Assembly: GCF_001999965.1 (NCBI RefSeq)
Contig: NZ_CP019646.1
Span: 2,480,001-2,544,000 of the forward strand
DNA: 64,000 nucleotides
Source: Limihaloglobus sulfuriphilus
GTDB lineage: Bacteria; Planctomycetota; Phycisphaerae; Sedimentisphaerales; Sedimentisphaeraceae
Reading direction: 5' to 3'
Shown: positions 4,473-64,000 of the stretch, piece after piece
How positions within the stretch are numbered: the stretch's first letter is position 1
Layout of the letters: each line of letters opens with the position of its first letter
Translations under genes and position numbers: made by a program
The notes under the pieces: generated by a model
What the model was told of the DNA's origin: nothing
Database searches by the model: none
What the model saw: only the letters and a program-made list of their open reading frames with translations

Positions 4473-4533
4473 ACATGCGGTGTTTACGGTAAATGATATT
4501 TTCTCCAAAATATCGTCTGCCGCGGTTGGTATG

Positions 4534-4812
4534 TTTACACCTCAAGCCTGAAGGGCTTGGATAGCTTAGCCCAGGGCAACGCCCTGGGAATCTGTGCGGC
4601 CAACCAATCCCCTCAACTCTTCCTTTCCGCACCGCCGACGGCGGTGCGGGGGATGGGATGAACACCGCATACATACATAGGGCGGTGCCCCATGCTATGA
4701 TATTTCGCACCTTTGGTGCTCTTCCTAAGACCCCGCTTTATCAACCAAAAAGCGGCGGTGTTTTTGTGTCGGGCTGGAAGATGCGACCTGCGTTGGAGAT
4801 GTTTCCGGGGCG
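4534..4812. repeat. Palindrome-rich repeat unit, copy A (279 bp)
   Basis: This unit begins TTTACACCTCAAGCCTGAAG and ends GTTTCCGGGGCG. Inside are consecutive palindromes: AAGCC/GGCTT; CCCAGGGC-AAC-GCCCTGGG; CCGCACCGCCG-A-CGGCGGTGCGG; the CATAGGGC/GCCCCATG stem with one mismatch; GCACC-TTT-GGTGC; and CCGCTTT/AAAGCGG. It is followed head-to-tail by copy B. Apparent ORFs here run through the repeats and are not treated as genes. Confidence 0.85.
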
Positions 4813-4996
4813 TTTACACAAAAGCCTGAAGGGCTTGGATAACTTAGCCCAGGGCAACGCCCTGGGAATCTGTGCGGCCAACCAATCCCCTCAATTTTCC
4901 CTTCCGCACCGCCGACGGCGGTGCGGGGGAGGGGGTGAACACCGCATACATACATAGGGCGTTGCCCTATGCTATGATATTTCGCACCTTTGGTGC
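4813..4996. repeat. Palindrome-rich repeat unit, copy B (truncated, 184 bp)
   Basis: This copy has the same order of palindromes as copy A up to GCACCTTTGGTGC at 4984-4996, where it stops. The CCGCTTT stem and the GATGTTTCCGGGGCG tail are missing. A unique stretch of about 110 bases (4997-5108) separates it from copy C. The CATAGGGC-GTT-GCCCTATG stem is perfect here. Confidence 0.85.
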
Positions 4997-5108
4997 GTGG
5001 GCAACATGAGAATGGTTGAACTTTTATGTGTGTAAAATTTTCCCCGAGCGCTCCGTGGTGAATAATAGTCACGTCTTAAAACAGTGTAAACGCCTCCGGA
5101 TGGATTTG

Positions 5109-5386
5109 TTTACACCTCAAGCCTGAAGGGCTTGGATAACTTAGCCCAGGGCAACGTCCTGGGAATCTGTGCGGCAACCAATCCCCTCAACTCTTCCTTT
5201 CCGCACCGCCGGCGGCGGTGCGGGGGAGGGGGTGAACACCGCATACATACATAGGGCGTTGCCCTATGCTATGATATTTCGCACCTTTGGTGCTCTACCT
5301 AAGGCCCCGTTTAAAAAACCAAAAAGCGGCGGCGATTTTGTTTCGCTCTGGAAGATGCGGCCTACGTTGGAGATGTTTCCGGGGCG
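5109..5386. repeat. Palindrome-rich repeat unit, copy C (278 bp)
   Basis: This full-length unit contains all the palindromes. Differences from the other copies mostly keep pairing: CCCAGGGC/GTCCTGGG has a G-T wobble, and the large hairpin has G instead of A or C as its unpaired central base. It ends GTTTCCGGGGCG and continues directly into copy D. Confidence 0.85.
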
Positions 5387-5642
5387 TTCACACAAAAGCC
5401 TGAAGGGCTTGAATAGCTTAGCCCAGGGCAACGCCCTGGGAATCTGTGCGGCAACCAATCCCCTCAATTTTCCCTTCCGCACCGCCGCCGGCGGTGCGGG
5501 GGAGGGGGTGAACACCGCATACATACATAGGGCGTTGCCCTATGCTATGATATTTCGCACCTTTGGTGCTCTTCCTAAGACCCCGCTTTATCAACCAAAA
5601 AGCGGCGGTGTTTTTTGTGTCGGGCTGGAAGATGCGACCTAC
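5387..5642. repeat. Palindrome-rich repeat unit, copy D
   Basis: Example stem positions are CCCAGGGC at 5422-5429 with GCCCTGGG at 5433-5440, and CCGCACCGCCG at 5477-5487 with CGGCGGTGCGG at 5489-5499. The copy breaks off after GAAGATGCGACCTA, where a short fifth fragment is joined. Confidence 0.85.
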
Positions 5643-5679
5643 AGCTATGATATTTCGCACCTTTGGTGCTCTACCTAAG
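5643..5679. repeat. Fragment of the repeat unit at the 3' end of the RND gene
   Basis: GCTATGATATTTCGCACC and the following TTTGGTGCTCTACCTAAG reproduce the central part of the unit, matching copy C closely. The fragment overlaps the stop codon of the minus-strand efflux permease gene: TAG is read from CTA at 5675-5677. The array and the gene are therefore fused with no spacer. Confidence 0.8.
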
Positions 5680-8600
5680 TCGCCGGCTTGTGAAGCATCT
5701 TGTGCCAGCTGTCGAGAACCATGTAAAGACACGGCACCAGCACGAGTGTAATCAAGGTGGCAAAGAGAATCCCAAACCCCAGCGATATCGCCATGGGAAT
5801 CATAAACCTTGCCTGCCGCGATGTCTCGAATATCATCGGTGTCAGCCCGCCAAAGGTCGTAAGCGTTGTCAGAAGTATCGGCCTGAAACGTCTTACGCCT
5901 GCCTGGTGGATAGCGGTAAAGGCATCAAGGCCTTCGGTGCGCCTGAGATTATTGGCGTAATCGATCAGCACGAGCGAATCGTTTACAACAACACCGGAAA
6001 GCGCCACGATTCCCATCATGCTCATGATACTCACCGAATAGCCCATTATTATATGTCCGATAACCGCTCCGATTATGCCGAAAGGAATGGCTATCATAAC
6101 AATCAGCGGCTGTGAATAACTCTTAAACGGTATGGCAAGCATCGCGTAGATACACATCAGCGCAAAGATAAAACCGTAAAACAGGCTGGTCATACTTTCG
6201 CTCATGTCTGCCTGTCTGCCCTCCCATCTGTAAGAGAGACCGGGAAAATCCCTGACAAGCTGGGGCAGATAATCGGTTTCGAGCGTTTCCATGATGCGGC
6301 TTGTCTGGCTGATGGGCTCAATATTGGCGGTAACTGTAACGGTTCTGCCGGCATTTCGCCTGTTAATCGTCGTGTACGCCCTGCCGCGTGTTATCTCTGC
6401 CACTTCCCGCAAAGGAACATAGGTGCCGGCGGGTGTTCGTATAAGAAGCGTCTCAATATCGTACTCGCTGTTTCTCTGTTCTATCGGCAGACGCACACGC
6501 ACCTTTATCTCGTTTCTGCCCCTCTGCTGCCGCAGCGCTTCTGCCCCGTAGAACGAATACCGCACCTGCCGTGCGATCTCATGCGCGGTCAGGCCCAGAC
6601 TCTGGCCCTGGGGTTTTATCTTGAAATCGAGCTGCTGTTTTCCCGGTGAATAGCCGTCATCTATGTCTTTGACATTGGGAAAGTGCTCGAGTATCTCGGC
6701 GAGTTTTTGACTTGCCTGATCCAGAGTTTCTATGTTTCTGTGACTCAGCTCAACGGTAATCGCCGCACCCGAGCCGGGGCCGCCCCTGTCCGACTCAAAA
6801 CGGACACTTTCGGTTCCGGGGATAGGGCCTACCAGCTCTCGCCATTTATTGGTAACCTCGGTAGTGCTTATAGGCCGCGTCTCCGCGTCGGTGAGATATA
6901 GCCGCGCACTTACAGAGTTGTCATTGATTCTTGAATAAAAGCCCTCTACAAGCTCATCACCGCCGTTATTCTCGGCGACAATCCTTCCCTTTTCCAGGAG
7001 ATAATCGCTGACCTGCTGAATTTTACTCAGCGGGCTGCCGTAGGGCAGTGTTGCGGTTACCGAAGCAAAATCCGCCTCGATTCGCGGCATCTGTATTATG
7101 CCTATCCTGCCGCTGTTTACATAGCCGAGGATAAGAATAAAAACCGCAACCGCCGCGGCAACCACTATGTATTTTATTTTGATGCAGAAATCAAGTACCG
7201 GAGCAAAAGCAAACTCAACAAACCATATAAACTTCCTGCTGAATCCCTGCTGAAGTCTGTGCACAAACGCGGATATGCGGCCCCTGTTGTCACCGTTGGA
7301 GTGCGCCAGGTGCGCGGGGAGTATTACCAGCGATTCAAACAGCGATATCGCGAAGACTGTCATAACCACAAATGGTATAACTTTCCATATCTTGCCCATT
7401 GTTCCGGGGATAAAGCAGAGAGGCAGAAACGCTATAATATTGGTTGTAACACTGAAAACCACCGGCACCTTTACCGCCTGCGCACCTTTGATTGCGGCAT
7501 CAATGTGTTTCATGCCCCTGGTTCTGTATTCGTAGATATTTTCACCTACAACAATAGCATCATCAACCACGATTCCAAGAGCGACAATGAATGCAAACAT
7601 CGAAATCATGTTTATCGTAACGCCCATCAAAGGCAGAAACAAAAACGCTCCCAAAAACGATATCGGAATACCCAGTGTTACCCAGAACGCCAGTTTCAAC
7701 TCCAGAAAGAGCCCCAGAAGCATCAGAACAAGCAGCAACCCCCAGCCGGCATTTGTGAGCAGAAGCTCAAGCCTCTGGCGGTAAATATCAGACATATCCC
7801 GCCGTATCGCCCAGTCAACCCCCGGAGGCAGGCGATTTTCGATCTCTTTCATCGCCGCCTTGGCAGCCTTGGCAACTCCAATCGGCGTCTGGCTGCCGAC
7901 ACGGAAGATATCAAGAGAAACCGCTCTCATGCCGTTATAGTAGGCATACCTGTCTGAATCCTCGAAATCATCCCTTACAAGGGCGATATCACCAAGCTGA
8001 ACAACCGAACCCTCCCCGGTAGTTATAATCGGTATGTTTGCAAACTCGTCTGCCCAGTCCCGCCTCTCTTTGACCCTTAACAGGAGATCTCCGCCGGAAG
8101 TCTCTATATAGCCGCCGGGCAGCTCAACAGAGGCCGAGCGGATTATCTGCGCCACTTCATTGAGAGTAAGCCCGTATGCCCGCAGGGTCTGCTGGTCTAT
8201 TTGTATCTTGACTTCATAGTCCCTTACACCTTCGAGATCTACCTGGGTGATTTCCGGATTCTGCAGAAGCTCATCCCGCACCTGCTCGCCTATCTCGCGA
8301 AGCGCCCACTCGGAAACATCGCCGTAAATCTGCAAATCTAGCACTTCACGCCGTATCACCGACAGGCTCACCTGCGGCTCTTCGGCATCGAGCGGGAAGG
8401 TGGTTATACGGTCTATCTCCTGTTTTATGTCCTGATACGTCCTCTGCGGATCAGCGTCATCCTCGAGCTCGGCGGTTACTGTGCCGGAGCCTTCGCCTGC
8501 AACGGCGGTGATTTCCTTCACACCGTCAAGGCCTCTTATCGCCTCCTCGACGACGAGTATTATGCCCTGTTCAACTTCTTCGGGACTGGAACCGGGATAG

Positions 8601-48341: not shown

Positions 48342-50474
48342 CTACTCAGAAGCTGTTCTGCATAAAGCATTGATACTAGGCGATATAGCGAATATCTGGG
48401 GAGCGGTGGCATTGCCGAAACATTCAGAAATTATTCCCGGGAAATAATACACATAATCGTTATATGTCTTGATTGAAAGGGCATCATTGAAAATCCTGTT
48501 GACAATATCCTTTCTTGCAGAAGGCAGATCAGAAGCGACTTCGGCCGCTCCGAAAACAGTATTGTCCCAGCATTCATGCTTATAAGCGGCTTCAAGGCAT
48601 TTCCTCTTGACTTCAGCTTCAAACGGCAGATGCTTTTCATCAGGCAGTGTCAATGCCCAGATATAGTCAAAACCTATATTGTACCAGTCAAAGTCGATGT
48701 CCTCCCAGCCGTCTTCGTTATATGCGATGCCGGCGATGAAGCGGCCCTTATCTTCTCTCCAAAGCTCTTTATTTATAATTTTTTTGAGTTTTTGTGCCTG
48801 CTCTACAAAGTGCTGCCTGTCTTCTTGATTGTTGTTATATTGGGCAATTTCTGCCATCATGCTGTAGTTGGCGTAAAAAAGAACATTGATATAAAAGCTG
48901 TTTACAAAATGAAACTTCTTGTTTGTAGCCGGGGACCGGTACCACTCTTTTGTATCACCCCAGACGCCGTTTGGATCCTCGGTAATATCCGCCTCATTTA
49001 TCAGATATTCGCGGTACATGTTCTTCATTTTATCGTAATAGGTGATATTCTTGTCTTTATGAGGGTCATAGGCAGCCCCTGTGGTGTAATACTTAATGTT
49101 ATCCTTCATCAATTGATATGCATCACCCGTGATATATCTGTCATCGCCAAGCTGCTGCCACGCCTTATAGAGAGACCAGATTCCGTAAAATGCCGAATCA
49201 ACCTGTGAGAAATCCGTTTTCATGTTTTGACGGTAGAAATAAAACTGATCCCACCAGCGGTGAAAGCCGTTGGTCAGCTCGCCCTGATTGTAATTATGCA
49301 TAACCAGCTCGGCATGGGGCCGCATATATTCTTCCACGAGACCGATTTCAGTAAGGTCCAGAAGCGCGATCGAATCGTCGCGAACGTAGCTTTGCCAGTA
49401 GCCCACCGAATTTGATGAGTAGTAGAATACTGCCGCGGGAGAAGCGTAAATAGCCCCGTTGCGGCTTAGAAGCGATCTTACTTCAATAAGGTTATAGGCT
49501 AACTGTTTCTGCCGCAACCCGGAGAGCTTATCCAAGGAAACATCAAGTGTTTTTTCAATTCGGGCCCTGGCACCTGATACATAATCATCCCAGTGCCTGG
49601 CCGTCTTTTTTTTCCAATATTCAAAATCAAAAGCCCTTACCCCGCTTATTGCGGACTCGGCTTCGGGGCGGTTGTCAGAAAAAAAATAGAAAAATGACAC
49701 GCTGCTTTTGGCCGGCACAGTGAAATTTGCAACAAATCCATCGGCAGGATAGCTGCTCGCGAGTGAAACACTCTCTGGTTTTGAATTGAATACCAGCCCG
49801 GATACCGGATCAAGGTCTTTGGCGCGGTCAGCCGGCGGATCGTCATAGCTTTGCCAGAGAACCATCTTATCGCTGTCGTAAGCATAAACTGCATCCCCCA
49901 GGCTCACATTCATATCTACATTCCGCTTTCCCTCTACAAGGGTGTATAAACCTTTTCTTTCTTGCCGGGGCCTGATTTTTATTTGCAGTCTGGCTGGTTG
50001 GGAGCTGTTATTGGCCAGCGAATACAGCATGGCGTTTTCCCCCGCAGCAGAGAGCAGCTCCAGATTAAAGTCTGATGTCTCACCGTTATTACCCAGACCG
50101 GAGTCAAAAGAACATAACAGATGATAAGGCTTTCTCTGCATATCCGTGAGATGGGCTCGTGTAAGCAGGTTTTCCGTTTTACCCCCGGCAGAGAGATTCA
50201 GCTCCATGCTGCCGTTAAGCCCCCACAAATGGCGAAAAGGTATCACCGGCGGCTTTCCGGAAAGATACGGCCTATACACAAAACCGCAGCTTGCAGCGGC
50301 ATTGTCTGTCTTGAAATATACAACGCCGTCTGTCATTGTAAGGCTGGTCGCAATTGGTTTTTTGAGTTTAAGCACATCCTCAAAATTGTCGAAGCCGTGT
50401 GCAGAAAATTGCATATAAGCCATACAAATACAACTGATTAAAAAACAACAAAAACTCTTAAATCTATAAGTCAT
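48342..50474 (-). CDS. Secreted six-hairpin (alpha/alpha)6 glycosidase-like protein
   Basis: The 710-residue protein has a signal peptide, a beta-sandwich N-terminal half (to about 300) and a helical toroid resembling GH15/GH63/GH78-type six-hairpin glycosidases. Support comes from VGYWQSYVRDDSIALLDLTEIGLVEEY, HRWWDQFYFYRQN, GVWGDTKEW and GFDYIWAL-type segments, which place acidic residues at helix ends. The family is not certain. The start at 50474 is chosen because the 21 codons before it in the open frame come from a terminator-like palindrome shared with another place in the window. It lies after a gene for a GH172-like protein in the same direction. Confidence 0.7.
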   Translation of the reverse strand: MTYRFKSFCCFLISCICMAYMQFSAHGFDNFEDVLKLKKPIATSLTMTDGVVYFKTDNAAASCGFVYRPYLSGKPPVIPFRHLWGLNGSMELNLSAGGKTENLLTRAHLTDMQRKPYHLLCSFDSGLGNNGETSDFNLELLSAAGENAMLYSLANNSSQPARLQIKIRPRQERKGLYTLVEGKRNVDMNVSLGDAVYAYDSDKMVLWQSYDDPPADRAKDLDPVSGLVFNSKPESVSLASSYPADGFVANFTVPAKSSVSFFYFFSDNRPEAESAISGVRAFDFEYWKKKTARHWDDYVSGARARIEKTLDVSLDKLSGLRQKQLAYNLIEVRSLLSRNGAIYASPAAVFYYSSNSVGYWQSYVRDDSIALLDLTEIGLVEEYMRPHAELVMHNYNQGELTNGFHRWWDQFYFYRQNMKTDFSQVDSAFYGIWSLYKAWQQLGDDRYITGDAYQLMKDNIKYYTTGAAYDPHKDKNITYYDKMKNMYREYLINEADITEDPNGVWGDTKEWYRSPATNKKFHFVNSFYINVLFYANYSMMAEIAQYNNNQEDRQHFVEQAQKLKKIINKELWREDKGRFIAGIAYNEDGWEDIDFDWYNIGFDYIWALTLPDEKHLPFEAEVKRKCLEAAYKHECWDNTVFGAAEVASDLPSARKDIVNRIFNDALSIKTYNDYVYYFPGIISECFGNATAPQIFAISPSINALCRTASE

Positions 50475-50604
50475 AACAGAGAAACCTTTTATAAATGCCC
50501 CGTATGACGTTACGGCATACGGGGCTTGGATTAACATTTAAAACCGGATTTCACGGCCATAGAGATTCCTGCCCAGTGAGGTCTTTGTCGAAGATCCTGA
50601 AATA
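50457..50604. repeat. Left copy of a duplicated segment flanking the GH172 gene
   Basis: This copy matches 52837-53103 base for base over most of its length, except for an internal loss of about 110 bases. It contains the first codons of the six-hairpin gene, the GCCCCGTATG palindrome and the tail of a LamG/dockerin gene. Confidence 0.8.
50498..50526 (-). terminator. Hairpin GCCCCGTATG/CATACGGGGC upstream of the six-hairpin gene
   Basis: GCCCCGTATG and CATACGGGGC form a perfect 10-bp stem around ACGTTACGG at about 50498-50526. It is nearly the same as the hairpin after the LamG gene (52876-52904). It may end transcripts from the upstream genes, or act on the leader of the six-hairpin gene. 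Confidence 0.6.
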
Positions 50605-50640
50605 ATTCATCTGAACATCATCTGTAAAGAGAATCCGTTT
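50551..50640 (-). pseudogene. Remnant of a LamG/dockerin C-terminus with in-frame deletion
   Basis: Read on the minus strand, the frame gives YFRIFDKDLTGQ followed directly by ESLWP-stop. The intact gene at 52939 has DDFRIFDKELTEQEIQQ and, 37 residues later, HESLWP-stop. The remnant has thus lost the final dockerin-like repeat by an in-frame deletion, but keeps the sequence on both sides. It has no start, so it is not expected to be expressed. It shows that this stretch is a degenerated copy of the LamG gene end. Confidence 0.75.
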
Positions 50641-50667
50641 CCTGATCCTAATATGATCATCTTCAAA

Positions 50668-52767
50668 TCAAAGCTTTTTAATCCATAGAAAGTCTAATCC
50701 TATTTTATTATTCTCTGTTCCACTTTCACTTTTAATTTCCAGTAAATGTATTCCTTTCTTGAGTTCATAGCTGCCCAATTCTATTGTTCTGGACATTTTG
50801 CGGAAGGGAGAATCAAGCTGAATCAAATTTGTTCCATTTACACTGATACTGTTACCATCTAACGCAGCAGAATAAGCTCCCGAACCGGGCATAACCGCAT
50901 GAGTTACCTTCAGTTCATAATTACCATCTTCCGGTATTTTGATCGAAATACATAACTTATCACCTTTTTTTTCAGGATTAAAAACAACCAATTTACCACC
51001 AGCCCAAATTGGATCATGTTCAAATGCCAACCTGTTATCTTCCAATGAATCTATCATCTGCTCAACTTGATAAAATTGATAACCTTTGGCCAAACCCAAA
51101 CCACTAAGTATTGGAGTCCACGACTCAGACACTTGAGGCATTCGAGCCTGAGCATGAGTAATTTCAACGTGGTCTGTGAGCCTATCCGGCTGAGCATAGA
51201 AATAGCTGATCCGTGCATAGGAAAAATTTTCGTTTCGCGTATGATGCAACAATTCCATATAAAAAGCAAAAAAGTCTTTAAACGGTAAATCATCAATTAT
51301 CTGGAAGCGTGCATTAGCAACAAAACCTCTGTTGGCAGGCCCATCGTTTCGCGATTGATTGCAATAAGGATATGCGAAAATATCATTCATGCCCCAGGCA
51401 TAATTAAAATAATCTTCTGTACCTGTGCCAAATATAGAAGGATACTTATCTTCATCTACAAATACCTTTTCATCTCCCTCGCCCCACCATGAGCCTCCCG
51501 CGCCAATCGGGACATCACAAGAGTTAAAGAGCATTATTGCTGAACCAATAAATCGCCCAGTGCCTCGCACAACCAAAAACGGCAAATCCACTACAGGGTC
51601 ATTACTTATAAGATGATGATCTGCCCTCCAAAGCGCATTAAAAAGGAGAGCGTTTTCATTATAATTATTTTTGTCGCTTAAAACTTCAACTTTGCAATTT
51701 ACAACCTGCCGGCCATGATTGCGAAAATATATTTTTGCATTGCTATTAAACGGCATAGGCAATCTACAAACCATTGTCCCGTCGGATTTAACCGTAAATG
51801 GCAATGATTTATAGGGATTTATTCCCGGCCCAGAACCGAAGAAATCACCAACAGGACTCTGTACCTGGGGTATAACAGAATCATCAAATTTAATCGTCAT
51901 AACAGTCTGACGAAGTGCAGCCGCTATATCTTCAGCCTGAAGTCGAATTTTGAGCTCTTTGATGACCTTATTACCATTTATATCAATTATTTTTTTATTT
52001 TCTTTAGATTTTATTGAAACTGACTCATGCAATTTATCTCCACCAGAAGAAAAATTATATTGTTCATCGGGCTCATTTAAAACGTTGGAAACTTCCTGAA
52101 TCAGTGCGAAAGATTTTTCAAGCTGTTCAGCTGTAAATGACAAAACTTTTGTTCCTGGTTCATAACAGCGTATCTGAATATGGTAAAAGTGGATATCCTT
52201 AATATTTCCTGTCCATTCAATTCTGCACCTTTTGGCAAACGGAACCGGGAAGTATGATGCGTCTCTTTGGGTAAAACATTTATCAAGTAAAGAGATATTT
52301 AAATCATCAGCAAATAATTTATATGGATATTTAAAAAAATCACCAGCATCTCCTTCATAAACAGCAGACTTGCTGCTATCCAGATACATCCGAATCTTAC
52401 CCGGAATCATCGCTGTCCACATTCGAACAATAGCGCCTGGGCCATTAACATCACAAACAAGATATGTACCTATCCCATCTTTATCAGGAGGAGCAATTAC
52501 ATCCTCAAAAGCGGGGACAGGTTCACCTCCAAACCCATCAAGGTTGTTAAACCAAGATGAACCATTTACCTTACCAGTTGAGCGGTCATAAGAAGAAAAC
52601 TGAACCGTCTTATAATATGGATCAGGAAACTCTACCAATCGATCAAGATCAATCATTTCCCTCAAAAGAGTATCAAATGAAACCTTTTGGTCAGCACTTG
52701 AGAATGCGCTAAAACAGCAAATGATAAAGCAAATAACAAGTTTAATTTTCTGTAGCTTTCCAATCAT
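50668..52767 (-). CDS. GH172 (DUF2961) family glycosidase-like protein
   Basis: The 699-residue secreted protein has a signal peptide and the double jelly-roll DUF2961 domain now classed as GH172 (alpha-fructofuranosidase/difructose-dianhydride and D-arabinofuranosidase activities). GEGDEKVF carries E430, and GTGTEDYF carries E451, 21 residues apart, the same spacing as the two catalytic glutamates reported for GH172. A C-terminal beta module (about 560-695) may bind sugars. The base composition is much lower in G+C than the neighbours: only 11 of 60 bases in the line starting at 51961. The gene is flanked by direct repeats. AAAGGA precedes the start. It appears to be a later insertion. Confidence 0.85.
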   Translation of the reverse strand: MIGKLQKIKLVICFIICCFSAFSSADQKVSFDTLLREMIDLDRLVEFPDPYYKTVQFSSYDRSTGKVNGSSWFNNLDGFGGEPVPAFEDVIAPPDKDGIGTYLVCDVNGPGAIVRMWTAMIPGKIRMYLDSSKSAVYEGDAGDFFKYPYKLFADDLNISLLDKCFTQRDASYFPVPFAKRCRIEWTGNIKDIHFYHIQIRCYEPGTKVLSFTAEQLEKSFALIQEVSNVLNEPDEQYNFSSGGDKLHESVSIKSKENKKIIDINGNKVIKELKIRLQAEDIAAALRQTVMTIKFDDSVIPQVQSPVGDFFGSGPGINPYKSLPFTVKSDGTMVCRLPMPFNSNAKIYFRNHGRQVVNCKVEVLSDKNNYNENALLFNALWRADHHLISNDPVVDLPFLVVRGTGRFIGSAIMLFNSCDVPIGAGGSWWGEGDEKVFVDEDKYPSIFGTGTEDYFNYAWGMNDIFAYPYCNQSRNDGPANRGFVANARFQIIDDLPFKDFFAFYMELLHHTRNENFSYARISYFYAQPDRLTDHVEITHAQARMPQVSESWTPILSGLGLAKGYQFYQVEQMIDSLEDNRLAFEHDPIWAGGKLVVFNPEKKGDKLCISIKIPEDGNYELKVTHAVMPGSGAYSAALDGNSISVNGTNLIQLDSPFRKMSRTIELGSYELKKGIHLLEIKSESGTENNKIGLDFLWIKKL

Positions 52768-52824
52768 AATTTTCCTTTCTGTAGTTAACTATGATCAATT
52801 TAATTTTTCGATTGGTTATTTTTA

Positions 52825-52854
52825 CTAAATAAAGTCCTTAAATCTATAAGTCAC
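52825..52854 (-). pseudogene. Remnant of the six-hairpin gene start (9 codons)
   Basis: GTG ACT TAT AGA TTT AAG, then GAC TTT ATT TAG, corresponds to the first codons of the intact six-hairpin gene (ATG ACT TAT AGA TTT AAG AGT TTT at 50474). The coding sequence is cut by a stop after nine codons. This marks the right boundary of the inserted GH172 segment. Confidence 0.7.
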
Positions 52855-53103
52855 AACAGAGAAACCTTTTATAAAAGCCCCGTATGCCATTACGGCGTAC
52901 GGGGCTTGATTTAATCATTAAAGTTTAAAAATCGGCTTTTACGGCCATAGAGATTCGTGCAGCCATTCTGCGGCGATCTCTGCGAAATCTGCATAATCTA
53001 CCTGAGCATCATCATTGATGTTACCCGCGGCCGGATTAAGCGAGCCGCCCATGAGCTGCTGGATTTCCTGCTCAGTGAGCTCTTTGTCGAAGATCCTGAA
53101 ATC
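52837..53103. repeat. Right copy of the duplicated segment flanking the GH172 gene
   Basis: The sequence shared with 50457-50604 starts CTTAAATCTATAAGTCA and ends TTTGTCGAAGATCCTGAAAT. It covers the six-hairpin gene start, the intergenic palindrome and the last coding part of the LamG gene. This copy is longer than the left one by about 110 bases, at 52952-53062. Confidence 0.8.
52876..52904 (-). terminator. Hairpin GCCCCGTATGCC/GGCGTACGGGGC after the LamG gene
   Basis: A 12-bp stem with one G-T wobble around ATTAC lies about 35 bases after the LamG stop codon. On the minus strand it is followed by TTTTATAAAAGGTTTC. It is a reasonable terminator for the LamG gene and the paralogue of the hairpin at 50498. 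Confidence 0.6.
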
Positions 53104-55998
53104 ATCGATCTGTCCGTCGTACTCATAGTACTCACCCCCATCTCCGTCAAGGCGGGAGCCGATGGCAAACTCGGTATTGCCGCTGAGAGGCAGAGTCATG
53201 CCGCTGCCGCTGTGCCAGAGCCGGCCATTGAGGTAAATCTTCATTGTACCGTCAGTAACGTTCTTGGTGAATGCCCAGTGATTCCACTGGCCTTCATATT
53301 CTTCGGGGGCTGCGGCCTTGCCGATGCGGTCGAATCCGTCAACATGGCTTCCGCCGGCATCAAAGTAAACCGAGCCGTCCTCATGAGGAATATGAATTCT
53401 GAGGATACTGGCCTGCTCGCTGTTAACCAGCCCGCGGCTGGCGTCGAAGCAGTAGTCCGCGGCGGGCTGAACAGTCGGGTCGCCGTACTGCCACAATGCG
53501 ACTGTGATTTGGTCAGTGATTGCAGAAAGCACGTCATGGGCAACATGAACACGGTCGCCTGCCGCTGCGTCGAAGGACAGAGCAGAGCCGTATTTGCCGC
53601 TGACCCAGGTGCATCCTGTTATATCGCCGTCATAGCCGCTGCCGGCAGAATCAACTGCCACGGTACCCGAGCCGGTATCAAACTGATACGATGCGAGTGC
53701 CGGCTGAGTCAGCCAGCCGTCAAGCACTATCACCAGATCTTCGAGATCCACCGCACAGTCACCGTTTATATCAGCTCCGAGCCCTGAAAGCTCCGGCCTG
53801 CATGTGCTTGGCGAAAGGGTTATATGGTCGATATATACAGCGTCCGAACCGGACGAGGATGGATTTTCCACGCCGTCACCAACGCCAACGGTAATACTGG
53901 ATACCGCCGCGAGGTCTATGCCGGTTCCAAAGTCGGCCAGCGGTATTTCCCAGGCGGTGTAATCGGCATTCTGAACTGCCTGATAATCCGGATGGTCAAT
54001 CTGGCTTGTCTGGGCCGAGCTGTCCTCAAGACGGACATAGATCGGATCCTCCTGGTTGTCCGCACTGCCGCGGAATACAATCGTTAGAAGCGATGCCTGG
54101 CCGCCCATGGTCATATCGGCAGCTGTGTCAAACTGGCGTGTCGCCTCGACTTTGTACATTGAGAGCGGCATTGTTGTTGTGAAGTTGTTGTAATTGATAC
54201 GCATTGCCTTGCTGTCGGTGCCTTCAGTTTCTGATAAAGCAATGAAGTTGGTCGTATCATTGTAGAAGCAGCTCCACTTGTCCCTGAGCAGGTCAGAATC
54301 GACATACTCTCTGAAGGTGTCCACTGCGATAGAATCTGCCGTGAAGCTGAGAACCTCGCCGGTTCTGATTTCACTGCCGATAACATCATCGACCCTCCAG
54401 TAGTAGGTCCTGCCAAGCTCAAGCGACTGAGCCGTATAGGTAGTGAGTGTCTGGCTGCCCCTGCCCGGAAGGGTATCCGGATCGGCGGCGTCCGCTACGC
54501 TCTGGTAATCATCACCGAAATAGACATTGTAGGAATCGGTGTTAGCGCCCGGATCCCATTCCAGCCTGACCTCTGAATCTGTGTTCATAGGCACACTAAG
54601 ACCGTCAGCGGGATAGAAATTCTCCGAGTAAGTAGAGCCTTTATAAACAAGACCGACATTATCAAAATGCACCGTTCCGTTGTAGTAATAGTCGTGGAAG
54701 GTATGAGAGAGCTTTGTATCGATCCTGTAGGTATTGGCAGGAGCAACAGCAGAAACGGAGCCATAGTACCATTTATTAGGAACACTGTCACCGCTGAGAA
54801 TGTTTGCTGTTTTGCTGCCCACAATTTGTTCAGTCTTATCCATAAACACAATATGCACATCAGCTATCTCGCCTGATTCCAGGCCGTCGGGCGTCATCAC
54901 ACAGACCGAAGCTGTATATGTCAGGCCTTCCTGGTCCTGGCCGAAAGTTCTCCAGCCCTGCGCCAGGGTCCACATGTCGTGGTTTGCAAACTCGCTTTTG
55001 AGCGAATAGTCGCCGCCCAGCGAGTTGCCCTCATACCTGAACATATCAAACGTCCACCATGCCGCCGGTGCTTCCGGCGAGGGGCCTTCAAACTCAAAGC
55101 CGTAATTGTTCAGCATGTTTTCAACAACAGTGAATGACCAGACCTTCCCTGTATTGACAACCTGATCATCTGCGTCGAGATCATCAACCCGCCAGTAGTA
55201 TGTGCGGCCTTCCACAAGCTGTTCTGTCAGATAATATGCCTCTGTCAGGTTTCCCCTGCCCGGCAATACATTGGGATCAGAGGCTTCATTGACCTCATCA
55301 TAATACTCGCCTAAATAAAGATTGTATGACGAGGCATTGGAAGAGCTTGACCAGGTCAAAATACCAGGCCCTTCAACCGCTGCGATGCGGCTGCCGTCTG
55401 CCGGAGTCGGAACGACCAGAGCAGGGCTGGAAATCTGAGGTGAAGTTAACGACACGTTGTCCGCACGGATTACGCCCCAATCACCGTGCGTACCACCTCC
55501 CATGTAACCAACCACACGGAACCTTACCTTTTGAGTATTCGCAGGAGCGGTCAAGGTTATTGAACGGCTAACCCAGGAAAGTTCAATGTAATCAGGGTCA
55601 GTGGGTTTGAGTTCGGCGGCGTCCTGTCCGGAAAGCAATGTATCATCAGCGTCATAGAATTCGATATTCAGATATGCAGCTTCCTCTCCTGCCATTCTGG
55701 CCTTGAATTCCACATACGCGGTAAATTCAAAACCGCCTGCATTCTGACCCAAATCTACTGTCTGTTCAGCCCAGGCCCAGTTGAGTGCTTCTAAATCCTG
55801 AATCTGAAGCTGCCATTCACCGTGGCCCTCCTGTGTCTCGGCCACCCTCACAACATTACCACCGGCAAACAGCCAGTTTTCAGCCTGCGAAGTTCCGCTG
55901 CCTTCTTCAAAACCCGGGTTTTGGAGAAGATTTGCTCCGGCTATCCCGGCAAATAATGCCGGCAATGCCAGAATCCAAAATAAAGTTTTTGTTTTCAT
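52939..55998 (-). CDS. Secreted multidomain protein with LamG domain between dockerin-like repeats
   Basis: The 1019-residue protein has a signal peptide, then three carbohydrate-binding-like beta modules (about 25-190, 295-450, 545-735) separated by two fibronectin-III-like modules with repeated text: NLYLGEYYDEVNEASDPNVLPGRG versus NVYFGDDYQSVADAADPDTLPGRG. A first dockerin-like EF-hand (DINGDCAVDLEDLVIVLDGWL, about 745) is followed by a LamG/concanavalin-type domain (770-985) and then a second EF-hand (NINDDAQVDYADFAEIAAEWL, about 1000). No catalytic site is visible; a substrate-binding or scaffolding role is inferred. The ribosome binding site is GTGAGG. Confidence 0.82.
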   Translation of the reverse strand: MKTKTLFWILALPALFAGIAGANLLQNPGFEEGSGTSQAENWLFAGGNVVRVAETQEGHGEWQLQIQDLEALNWAWAEQTVDLGQNAGGFEFTAYVEFKARMAGEEAAYLNIEFYDADDTLLSGQDAAELKPTDPDYIELSWVSRSITLTAPANTQKVRFRVVGYMGGGTHGDWGVIRADNVSLTSPQISSPALVVPTPADGSRIAAVEGPGILTWSSSSNASSYNLYLGEYYDEVNEASDPNVLPGRGNLTEAYYLTEQLVEGRTYYWRVDDLDADDQVVNTGKVWSFTVVENMLNNYGFEFEGPSPEAPAAWWTFDMFRYEGNSLGGDYSLKSEFANHDMWTLAQGWRTFGQDQEGLTYTASVCVMTPDGLESGEIADVHIVFMDKTEQIVGSKTANILSGDSVPNKWYYGSVSAVAPANTYRIDTKLSHTFHDYYYNGTVHFDNVGLVYKGSTYSENFYPADGLSVPMNTDSEVRLEWDPGANTDSYNVYFGDDYQSVADAADPDTLPGRGSQTLTTYTAQSLELGRTYYWRVDDVIGSEIRTGEVLSFTADSIAVDTFREYVDSDLLRDKWSCFYNDTTNFIALSETEGTDSKAMRINYNNFTTTMPLSMYKVEATRQFDTAADMTMGGQASLLTIVFRGSADNQEDPIYVRLEDSSAQTSQIDHPDYQAVQNADYTAWEIPLADFGTGIDLAAVSSITVGVGDGVENPSSSGSDAVYIDHITLSPSTCRPELSGLGADINGDCAVDLEDLVIVLDGWLTQPALASYQFDTGSGTVAVDSAGSGYDGDITGCTWVSGKYGSALSFDAAAGDRVHVAHDVLSAITDQITVALWQYGDPTVQPAADYCFDASRGLVNSEQASILRIHIPHEDGSVYFDAGGSHVDGFDRIGKAAAPEEYEGQWNHWAFTKNVTDGTMKIYLNGRLWHSGSGMTLPLSGNTEFAIGSRLDGDGGEYYEYDGQIDDFRIFDKELTEQEIQQLMGGSLNPAAGNINDDAQVDYADFAEIAAEWLHESLWP

Positions 55999-61402: not shown

Positions 61403-64000
61403 TTAGGGATATAGGATTTCTACAACCGCGCCGTCCGGGTCATTGTTGAATTTTATGCTGAAGGTATCGCCGTCATTGTTAAACTCAAATGATACGGGCT
61501 GATTATCGGAACCGGTAACGGTTATGTTGCTCTCGATTCCTGAATAAGGCGCCGCCACACGGGCAACCGCCGGTGTCTGATCGGGGCCCTTCAACGTAAA
61601 CCGCAGCACGTTACCCGCATACTCCTGCGACGTAAGCCGGTGTGTGACGTGCAGCACCGCGGGCGTGCCGCTTTGAAGCTGAGATGTAACATCCCTGTAT
61701 AGTCCGCTGCTGCCGACAGTTACTACCGGATCAGTAACAACCTCCAGCGCCGGCGAGAAGATATCAACCATCCTGCCCTCAATGCTGACCGGATTGCTGA
61801 TCGAGTGGGCTATAACAAAGGGACCTCTGTCTATCCTGAAAAATCCAGGTGTCTGCATCGCCGGTCTGCCGATTTTGGCAAGTGCACTGTTAAGAAGAGG
61901 CAGATAAACATTATTAGCCGTCGAGGAAGAAGCGAAACTGCCCGGGCTGACCTGCCGGCGAAGTACCCAGCCCTCTCCCTCCTGCCAGTCACTGTCCTGA
62001 TTTGCACTGCCGCCAAGCTGATCGATCAGGTGTTCCAGAGCCGAGCCGTAGCCGAGCTTTTTCCACCAATAACGGCTGTTAGTGTCTATCGAATCACCGT
62101 AAGAGCCCAGCACGACAAGAACGCCGCCGCTGTTAACCCAGTTGACAAGCGAATTGTTCATAGAGACATAACGAGGCTTGAAATGCTCGTAAGAAAGTAC
62201 AATCACGTCAAACCTGGACAGATAATCCGGCTCGCCCGCGCGTTCCATGACGAAAGAGGAAATCGGGACGCCCTTTTGAATCAGTGGAATGAGAAGCCCG
62301 TATGCGTTCTGCAGCCTCGGATAGCCGCCCGTCTGCCACATCATTGTGTCAGCGACAGCGGCGCCGATGCGCTGTGTGGGCTGATTAACCCCGTCAACGT
62401 GCCACTGGCCGCCCTTCTGTATTTCCTGAAGAACCTGAGTGATGGTCAGAATCCGTATTCTGAAATCCTCCGGAGCCGGTGTGCCGCCGCCGGTAGCAAA
62501 ACCTAAATCTTCAAATATCCGCTCAGGCCAGGGTAGAATCTGATAAGAATCAACGTCCGGCATACTGAGCATCGCGGCTATGGATTGCCTGTACCAATTT
62601 TCATACTGCTGCCATGTGCGATTGAGATCATCTTCGACCGGGTCAACAAGCAGCCACAGCTTCTTACCGGATGCCGCGGTCAATTGGACAAAATAATCAT
62701 AAAGCGCAAAAGCCGATGAGAAGAATGATTTATCAGATGAGTTGTACTGATTCAATGACCAGTTTATCGGCCCTGTCCATACCTGGCCTATATAGCCGTC
62801 ATAGGACGCGGTTGTTGACTGCCCCAACGGAGCAACCAGTGGATATGCAAAAGCAACGTTACTGTAAAGCGAGTGAACAGGAACTATAAAGGCTGCATTT
62901 TCGTTTTTCTGCCGTGCTGATTCTTTGGTTTTTGAATAGAGCCTGCTTAAAAGTTGTTCATAGAGATGCTCTTTGAGCTGTCCGGTATAATATCGGGCGG
63001 CAGCGGAAGTATGGCCGCCTTCCCACGGCCGGCCGTAATAATCAACCCATAACTGCTTAAAACTCTCTTCATAGCCACCGTTTAGAAACGTAAGCGGCTC
63101 TTCCGGCAGGATTGCCTCCGCTCCAACAATCTCAATAGATTTTTCCGTCATTTCCTCAAGATAGCTAACCCAGCCGTCTGTGGCAGTCATATAATAACGG
63201 CTGCCTTCTATTCCGAACAAACCGCCCCACTGGTCTGTTTGAATATCATCAGTGTGGTCTCGGCCGTCCCAAGTGCCATTCCAATAGACATTACCGGCAT
63301 CAGAATCTGCTATAAACGATCTGGCGACACTATAGCCCTTCTGCCTCCAGGAATCTACAGTAGTCTTGCTGATATAATGCCAATCACCAAAACTCTGTCC
63401 CCAACTGGTTACAGCATCCGATGCGATGGCGGATCTGAGACTATACCCCAGTCCGGTCTGGAAGAAAGTTTTCGCGTTATAAAAATCTGATTCGATAAAG
63501 CTGCCGCACCCGGGATCAGCGGAATCATTACATTCAGTCCATTGCCCGGTCACCAGGTAAAAATCTTCTGTCCCGATTCTGCAATCTTTGTTCAAATCCC
63601 CCTGCATATAACCGCCATCTAAACAAGACCCCTGCTGAGCCTGAACAACATCAGCCCTGAAGCCATACACATTTGGCTTATACATTAGATAGTCATAAAT
63701 GCTGCTTGAAGAAACCGCAAACCTTGCAGATGTACTTTCCCCGCCGGAGGTCATTGAAAAGCGAACATAAACCACATCGGAGCCGCCGACAAAATCGGTT
63801 ATATCGTAATGAACGCCGGGGCCGCTGTCAGTACCGGAAGCGACTTGTGTCCAGTACTTATTATCTTTGGAAACCCACAACTGTGATTTGCACGAAGAAT
63901 CCGCCGCGTAACGCGTAGCCCAGACTTCTGCGCTGTCAAAACTTGTATCTATCACATAGCCCGGGCCGTATATTTCGGTAAAATCATACTTATAAACAAC
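61403..64000 (-). CDS. Large dockerin-containing hydrolase-like protein, 5' truncated by window edge
   Basis: The frame is open to the right edge (865 codons seen), so the true start lies beyond 64000. It begins within a beta module whose sequence SKDNKYWTQVASG resembles the C-terminal modules of the neighbouring 974-residue protein. Then comes one dockerin-like EF-hand (GDLNKDCRIGTEDFYLVTGQW). The rest has two parts: a barrel-like segment (KLWLLVDPVEDDLNRTWQQYENWYRQSIAAML, SYQILPWPERIFE), and an alpha/beta segment with RFDVIVLSYEHFKPRYVSMNNSLVNWVNSGG that resembles the beta-galactosidase trimerisation or glutamine-amidotransferase-like fold. A GH42-like relation is possible but not certain. 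Confidence 0.7.
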   Translation of the reverse strand, partial: VVYKYDFTEIYGPGYVIDTSFDSAEVWATRYAADSSCKSQLWVSKDNKYWTQVASGTDSGPGVHYDITDFVGGSDVVYVRFSMTSGGESTSARFAVSSSSIYDYLMYKPNVYGFRADVVQAQQGSCLDGGYMQGDLNKDCRIGTEDFYLVTGQWTECNDSADPGCGSFIESDFYNAKTFFQTGLGYSLRSAIASDAVTSWGQSFGDWHYISKTTVDSWRQKGYSVARSFIADSDAGNVYWNGTWDGRDHTDDIQTDQWGGLFGIEGSRYYMTATDGWVSYLEEMTEKSIEIVGAEAILPEEPLTFLNGGYEESFKQLWVDYYGRPWEGGHTSAAARYYTGQLKEHLYEQLLSRLYSKTKESARQKNENAAFIVPVHSLYSNVAFAYPLVAPLGQSTTASYDGYIGQVWTGPINWSLNQYNSSDKSFFSSAFALYDYFVQLTAASGKKLWLLVDPVEDDLNRTWQQYENWYRQSIAAMLSMPDVDSYQILPWPERIFEDLGFATGGGTPAPEDFRIRILTITQVLQEIQKGGQWHVDGVNQPTQRIGAAVADTMMWQTGGYPRLQNAYGLLIPLIQKGVPISSFVMERAGEPDYLSRFDVIVLSYEHFKPRYVSMNNSLVNWVNSGGVLVVLGSYGDSIDTNSRYWWKKLGYGSALEHLIDQLGGSANQDSDWQEGEGWVLRRQVSPGSFASSSTANNVYLPLLNSALAKIGRPAMQTPGFFRIDRGPFVIAHSISNPVSIEGRMVDIFSPALEVVTDPVVTVGSSGLYRDVTSQLQSGTPAVLHVTHRLTSQEYAGNVLRFTLKGPDQTPAVARVAAPYSGIESNITVTGSDNQPVSFEFNNDGDTFSIKFNNDPDGAVVEILYP

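Follow-up and report, generated by a model that had tools for sequence, protein, structure and literature searches.

How did a gene for a glycoside hydrolase come to lie between two copies of one and the same gene junction in Limihaloglobus sulfuriphilus, with the genes on either side left unbroken? The locus in question lies within bases 2480001-2544000 of the single-contig genome (3,868,357 bp; 3.87 Mb), a 64,000-bp stretch referred to here as the window, whose positions are used below unless stated otherwise. All three genes involved are located on the minus strand, with coordinates falling in the direction of reading, and follow one another in the order LamG gene, junction copy R, GH172/DUF2961 gene, junction copy L, and six-hairpin gene (Table 1).

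Table 1. Features of the duplicated junction and its surroundings, in the order of reading (window positions).
Feature	Position	Strand	Description
LamG gene (upstream neighbour)	52939..55998	(-)	complete open frame, 1019 aa; secreted multidomain protein
Junction copy R	52837..53118	(-)	intact LamG 3' end, hairpin, ribosome-binding site, six-hairpin start stub
Hairpin of copy R	52877..52904	(-)	dG -25.2 kcal/mol, z -4.5; terminator-like by scan
Six-hairpin start stub in copy R	52825..52854	(-)	GTG + 8 codons, then TAG
Insert	50618..52836	(-)	GH172 gene + 69-bp leader + ~50-bp tail; ~2.2 kb
GH172/DUF2961 gene	50668..52767	(-)	699 aa; Pfam PF11175, E 2.6e-57
Junction copy L	50457..50619	(-)	LamG stub, hairpin, ribosome-binding site, intact six-hairpin start
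Hairpin of copy L	50497..50525	(-)	dG -20.7 kcal/mol, z -3.2
Six-hairpin-like glycosidase gene (downstream neighbour)	48342..50474	(-)	open frame, 710 aa

The upstream neighbour encodes a protein with a C-terminal LamG domain (Laminin_G_3, Pfam PF13385, E 1.3e-18, above cut-off); its last residues, which have no Pfam match, are dockerin-like and suggest that the protein ends in a dockerin. The six-hairpin label of the downstream neighbour rests on matches to PF22422 and PF17389, both below the curated Pfam cut-off, and at the NCBIfam cut-off none of the three genes receives a name. The true start of the six-hairpin gene is probably the ATG at 50474 and not 50537, since translation from the latter would read through the hairpin and the stub in copy R corresponds to the gene from 50474 onward. 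Farther along the chromosome, the long genes at 61403-64000 and at genome positions 2544913-2548353 (L039:913-4353), the second just outside the window, are tandem paralogues with 79% DNA identity over 2.6 kb, indicating that local duplication also enlarges the cluster. The N-terminus of the LamG protein (first 190 residues; 55455-55935) has a 66%-identical copy at L039:6588-7268; the protein concerned, 226 aa long and encoded 15 kb away, has a PEP-CTERM-like tail at its end. A tandem block of near-identical repeats (92-95%) of several hundred bases occupies positions 4523-5685.

Copies R and L of the junction are direct repeats, 85-90% identical where aligned: in the LamG part identity is 85%, and in the section that starts at the LamG stop, includes the hairpin and reaches codon 6 of the six-hairpin gene it is 90% over the aligned bases. 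The repeats reported in the preliminary description were recovered by both a repeat search and genome-wide BLAST (E 2e-31 for 124 nt and E 2e-11 for 48 nt); their starts (50457 and 52837) stand, whereas their ends had been placed too early and are now set at 50619 instead of 50604 for L and at 53118 instead of 53103 for R. When compared with the whole genome, copy R matches itself, copy L, and a single 34-nt conserved LamG motif in another LamG gene, and the repeat thus exceeds chance expectation. The duplicated stretch extends from approximately the last 60 codons of the LamG gene to codon 6 of the six-hairpin gene and, with ~280 bp in copy R, is far longer than transposon target duplications.

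The two copies have opposite polarity of completeness. Each is complete toward its own neighbour and has a stub on its inner side, so that R contains the whole LamG end and L the whole six-hairpin start. The six-hairpin stub in R reads GTG ACT TAT AGA TTT AAG GAC TTT ATT TAG, i.e., nine codons, of which the first six match the real gene, with GTG in place of the ATG of the latter. The LamG stub in L reads ...FRIFDKDLTGQESLWP followed by the stop (FRIFDKDLTGQ-ESLWP-stop), whereas the intact LamG end reads FRIFDKELTEQE, then 37 codons, then ESLWP and the stop; relative to R, the stub thus carries an in-frame deletion of 111 bp. In R, the 37 codons missing from the stub are flanked by GCAGGAA and GCACGAA. 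These form an imperfect repeat of 7 bases such as is found at slippage deletions, and the loss may have come about in that way. Since the frame remains open past the GH172 stop, the LamG stub seemed to reach further toward the GH172 gene and to include a dockerin-like piece, but this extension was not significant compared with shuffles. The palindrome is present in both copies, and that of R is probably a terminator. Each hairpin has one mismatch, a different one, in an otherwise perfect stem, and we infer from these distinct changes that the two diverged from a single ancestor with a perfect stem.

The insert between the copies differs from its surroundings in composition. Its immediate overlaps aside, no other segment of equal length in the window has a G+C content as low as its 0.376, and it falls into the lowest 1.8% of 4178 segments of 2.2 kb sampled from the genome. 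The 253 sampled ORFs have a mean GC3 of 0.526, and with a value of 0.306 the GH172 gene lies at the 2.4th percentile; in codon usage it deviates less, at the 10th percentile. The background for these values consists of twenty 20-kb genome stretches plus the window. The LamG and six-hairpin genes are both within the normal range, as is the GH172 paralogue found elsewhere in the genome (GC3 0.577). Neither the leader nor the tail of the insert has a copy elsewhere in the genome, the neighbouring intergenic regions included.

The GH172 protein scores 194.5 bits against PF11175, for which the cut-off is 27. The acid/base and nucleophile glutamates of alphaFFase1 are E270 and E291 (PMC8605356). In an alignment to 7v1v, a structure of that enzyme, this catalytic pair of the family corresponds to E430 and E451 of the GH172 protein, with an equal spacing of 21 residues; the WWGEG and GTGTEDYF motifs also align, and both glutamates are invariant among 10 aligned sequences. 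The two proteins are thus alike in the PF11175 domain and in the conservation of the catalytic residues at the right spacing, but differ in length (699 aa here versus 460 in the 7v1v chain). Judged by its sequence, the gene product is a putative sugar-cleaving enzyme, with alpha-fructofuranosides or D-arabinofuranosides as candidate substrates. The closest proteins found are 43-49% identical and come from many phyla, with the best identity in the tree set being 48% over 562 columns. No foreign donor was resolved in the tree, where the protein groups, with weak support, with one Hydrogenedentota sequence and with its paralogue from this genome (46% identity). It is composition that suggests an origin of the gene outside this genome, and low G+C by itself is no proof of transfer. 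A plasmid carrying the stretch was not found, and phage records yielded only partial GH172 matches (21-34% identity).

Taken with the reciprocal stubs, the pair of repeats bounding the insert, which occur together nowhere else in the genome, the composition of the insert between two flanking genes of normal composition, and a leader and tail that resemble nothing else in the genome argue for the insertion of an A+T-rich GH172 piece into the LamG/six-hairpin junction, with a long target duplication (~280 bp), as the probable origin of the locus. We infer a single event, which would have unfolded as follows. In the ancestral order, the LamG gene would have been followed by the hairpin and the six-hairpin gene. 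A+T-rich DNA carrying the GH172 gene would then have entered the junction, whereby ~280 bp of the target became a direct repeat on either side, leaving the LamG gene with its last codons and the hairpin, and the six-hairpin gene with the hairpin, ribosome-binding site, and start. The superfluous stubs would have decayed afterwards, by the 111-bp loss in the LamG stub and the start codon change at the six-hairpin stub. The event was probably near-neutral for both neighbours, because each kept a full working end, and the retention by both of their own ends, hairpin, and ribosome-binding site may be why it persisted. Single-crossover integration of a junction-bearing circle, template switching, and repair of widely staggered ends are all possible joining routes; the exact breakpoints are blurred by the 10-15% divergence of the copies, and a multi-step history could have left the same picture. 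The preliminary description had already proposed that LamG was once followed directly by the six-hairpin gene and that the junction was duplicated when the GH172 gene came in, pointing to the nine-codon remnant on the right, the LamG remnant with an in-frame deletion on the left, the shared palindrome, and the markedly lower G+C of the GH172 gene. These observations all hold, and the reciprocal stubs and the composition of the insert support the proposal.

The same arrangement could have been produced by tandem duplication of a larger unit in which the GH172 gene already stood beside the LamG and six-hairpin genes, with later deletions reducing this to a single GH172 gene between stubs, a history of at least two steps in which one edge of the insert would be a duplication joint and the other a deletion joint. 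The cluster does hold other tandem duplicates (the 79% copy of the gene at 61403 and the 66% copy of the LamG N-terminus), and no special insertion mechanism would be required. However, a second GH172 gene and most of two further genes would have had to vanish without trace, nothing resembling the leader or tail is seen in intergenic regions nearby or in the rest of the genome, and the low G+C is left unexplained, so that we consider this history unlikely. Very unlikely is a short tandem duplication of the junction that came first, with the GH172 gene inserted between the copies later: tandem duplication is common in bacteria and would fit copies that have diverged by 10-15%, but the insert would have had to hit the joint of the two copies exactly. 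An origin of the repeats as a dispersed element, or as a conserved motif of terminators and gene starts, with no insertion behind them, is hardly conceivable. A terminator hairpin could by itself occur repeatedly, but the repeat covers the coding ends of two different genes, the genome-wide search yields this pair and the LamG motif only, and other genomes of the order share nothing of it beyond short LamG-coding matches.

An uninterrupted junction was sought among relatives. Searches for relatives of the six-hairpin gene gave nothing in the phylum (391 other genomes, E <= 1e-20) or in the class (396 others, E <= 1e-12), and in the order (160 others, E <= 1e-10) a single partial match of 30% was all that emerged; these samples overlap, and their counts are not additive. 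A further search of genome contigs returned no full-length homologue. The whole junction is present in no other genome of the order, where matches were confined to 47-60 nt at 75-79% identity within LamG-coding sequence, and no empty site, i.e., a single-copy junction, was found among the relatives searched.

A second insertion of this type was considered at genome positions 2557804-2562751 (L039:13804-18751), 14 kb beyond the right edge of the window, but was set aside, as the repeat there is an Rhs-type fragment dispersed through the genome (15 matches). That stretch consists of 4.7 kb of A+T-rich DNA (G+C 0.38) between two 130-bp repeats, 93% identical, and holds a dockerin-like gene and a PIN-domain-like gene. 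Elsewhere, at 3250247-3252228 (L042:10247-12228), a 470-aa gene flanked by GAATTAGGAATTA-type direct repeats is located between apparent atpB and atpE genes, and another repeat family occurs between atpD and atpC.

Insertion with long target duplication, as we favour it here, is an ordinary kind of event that has already been described in other bacteria, of which the new instance is unusually legible. According to PMC1643837 and PMC3154945, Nobusato et al. (2000) found it in Helicobacter pylori, where it often involves restriction-modification genes. As far as the pattern is outlined in those accounts, the present case is alike in the gene-carrying insert, the long direct repeats of the target on either side, and the usable neighbours; it is unlike in that the gene is one for a glycoside hydrolase and not a restriction-modification system, and in being read from a single genome, among whose searched relatives no empty site turned up. 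Transposed genes of Arabidopsis are also flanked by direct repeats of a genic target, for which integration of a circular intermediate was proposed (PMC2869330). The resemblance lies in such repeats surrounding a moved gene, whereas those cases are eukaryotic and were checked against the empty orthologous site. Duplications can also arise when repeats pair alternatively during transformation (PMC3784515).

These results indicate that a catabolic enzyme gene can enter a cluster without a visible mobile element and with its neighbours unbroken, a pattern so far described mainly for restriction-modification genes. It seems quite unlikely that this lineage generally uses insertion with long target duplication to add enzyme genes to its polysaccharide-degradation clusters without a transposase, the ends of both neighbours being preserved each time. 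A single case is a lead only; if such events are common around carbohydrate-enzyme genes, they would help to explain the growth of planctomycete degradation clusters.
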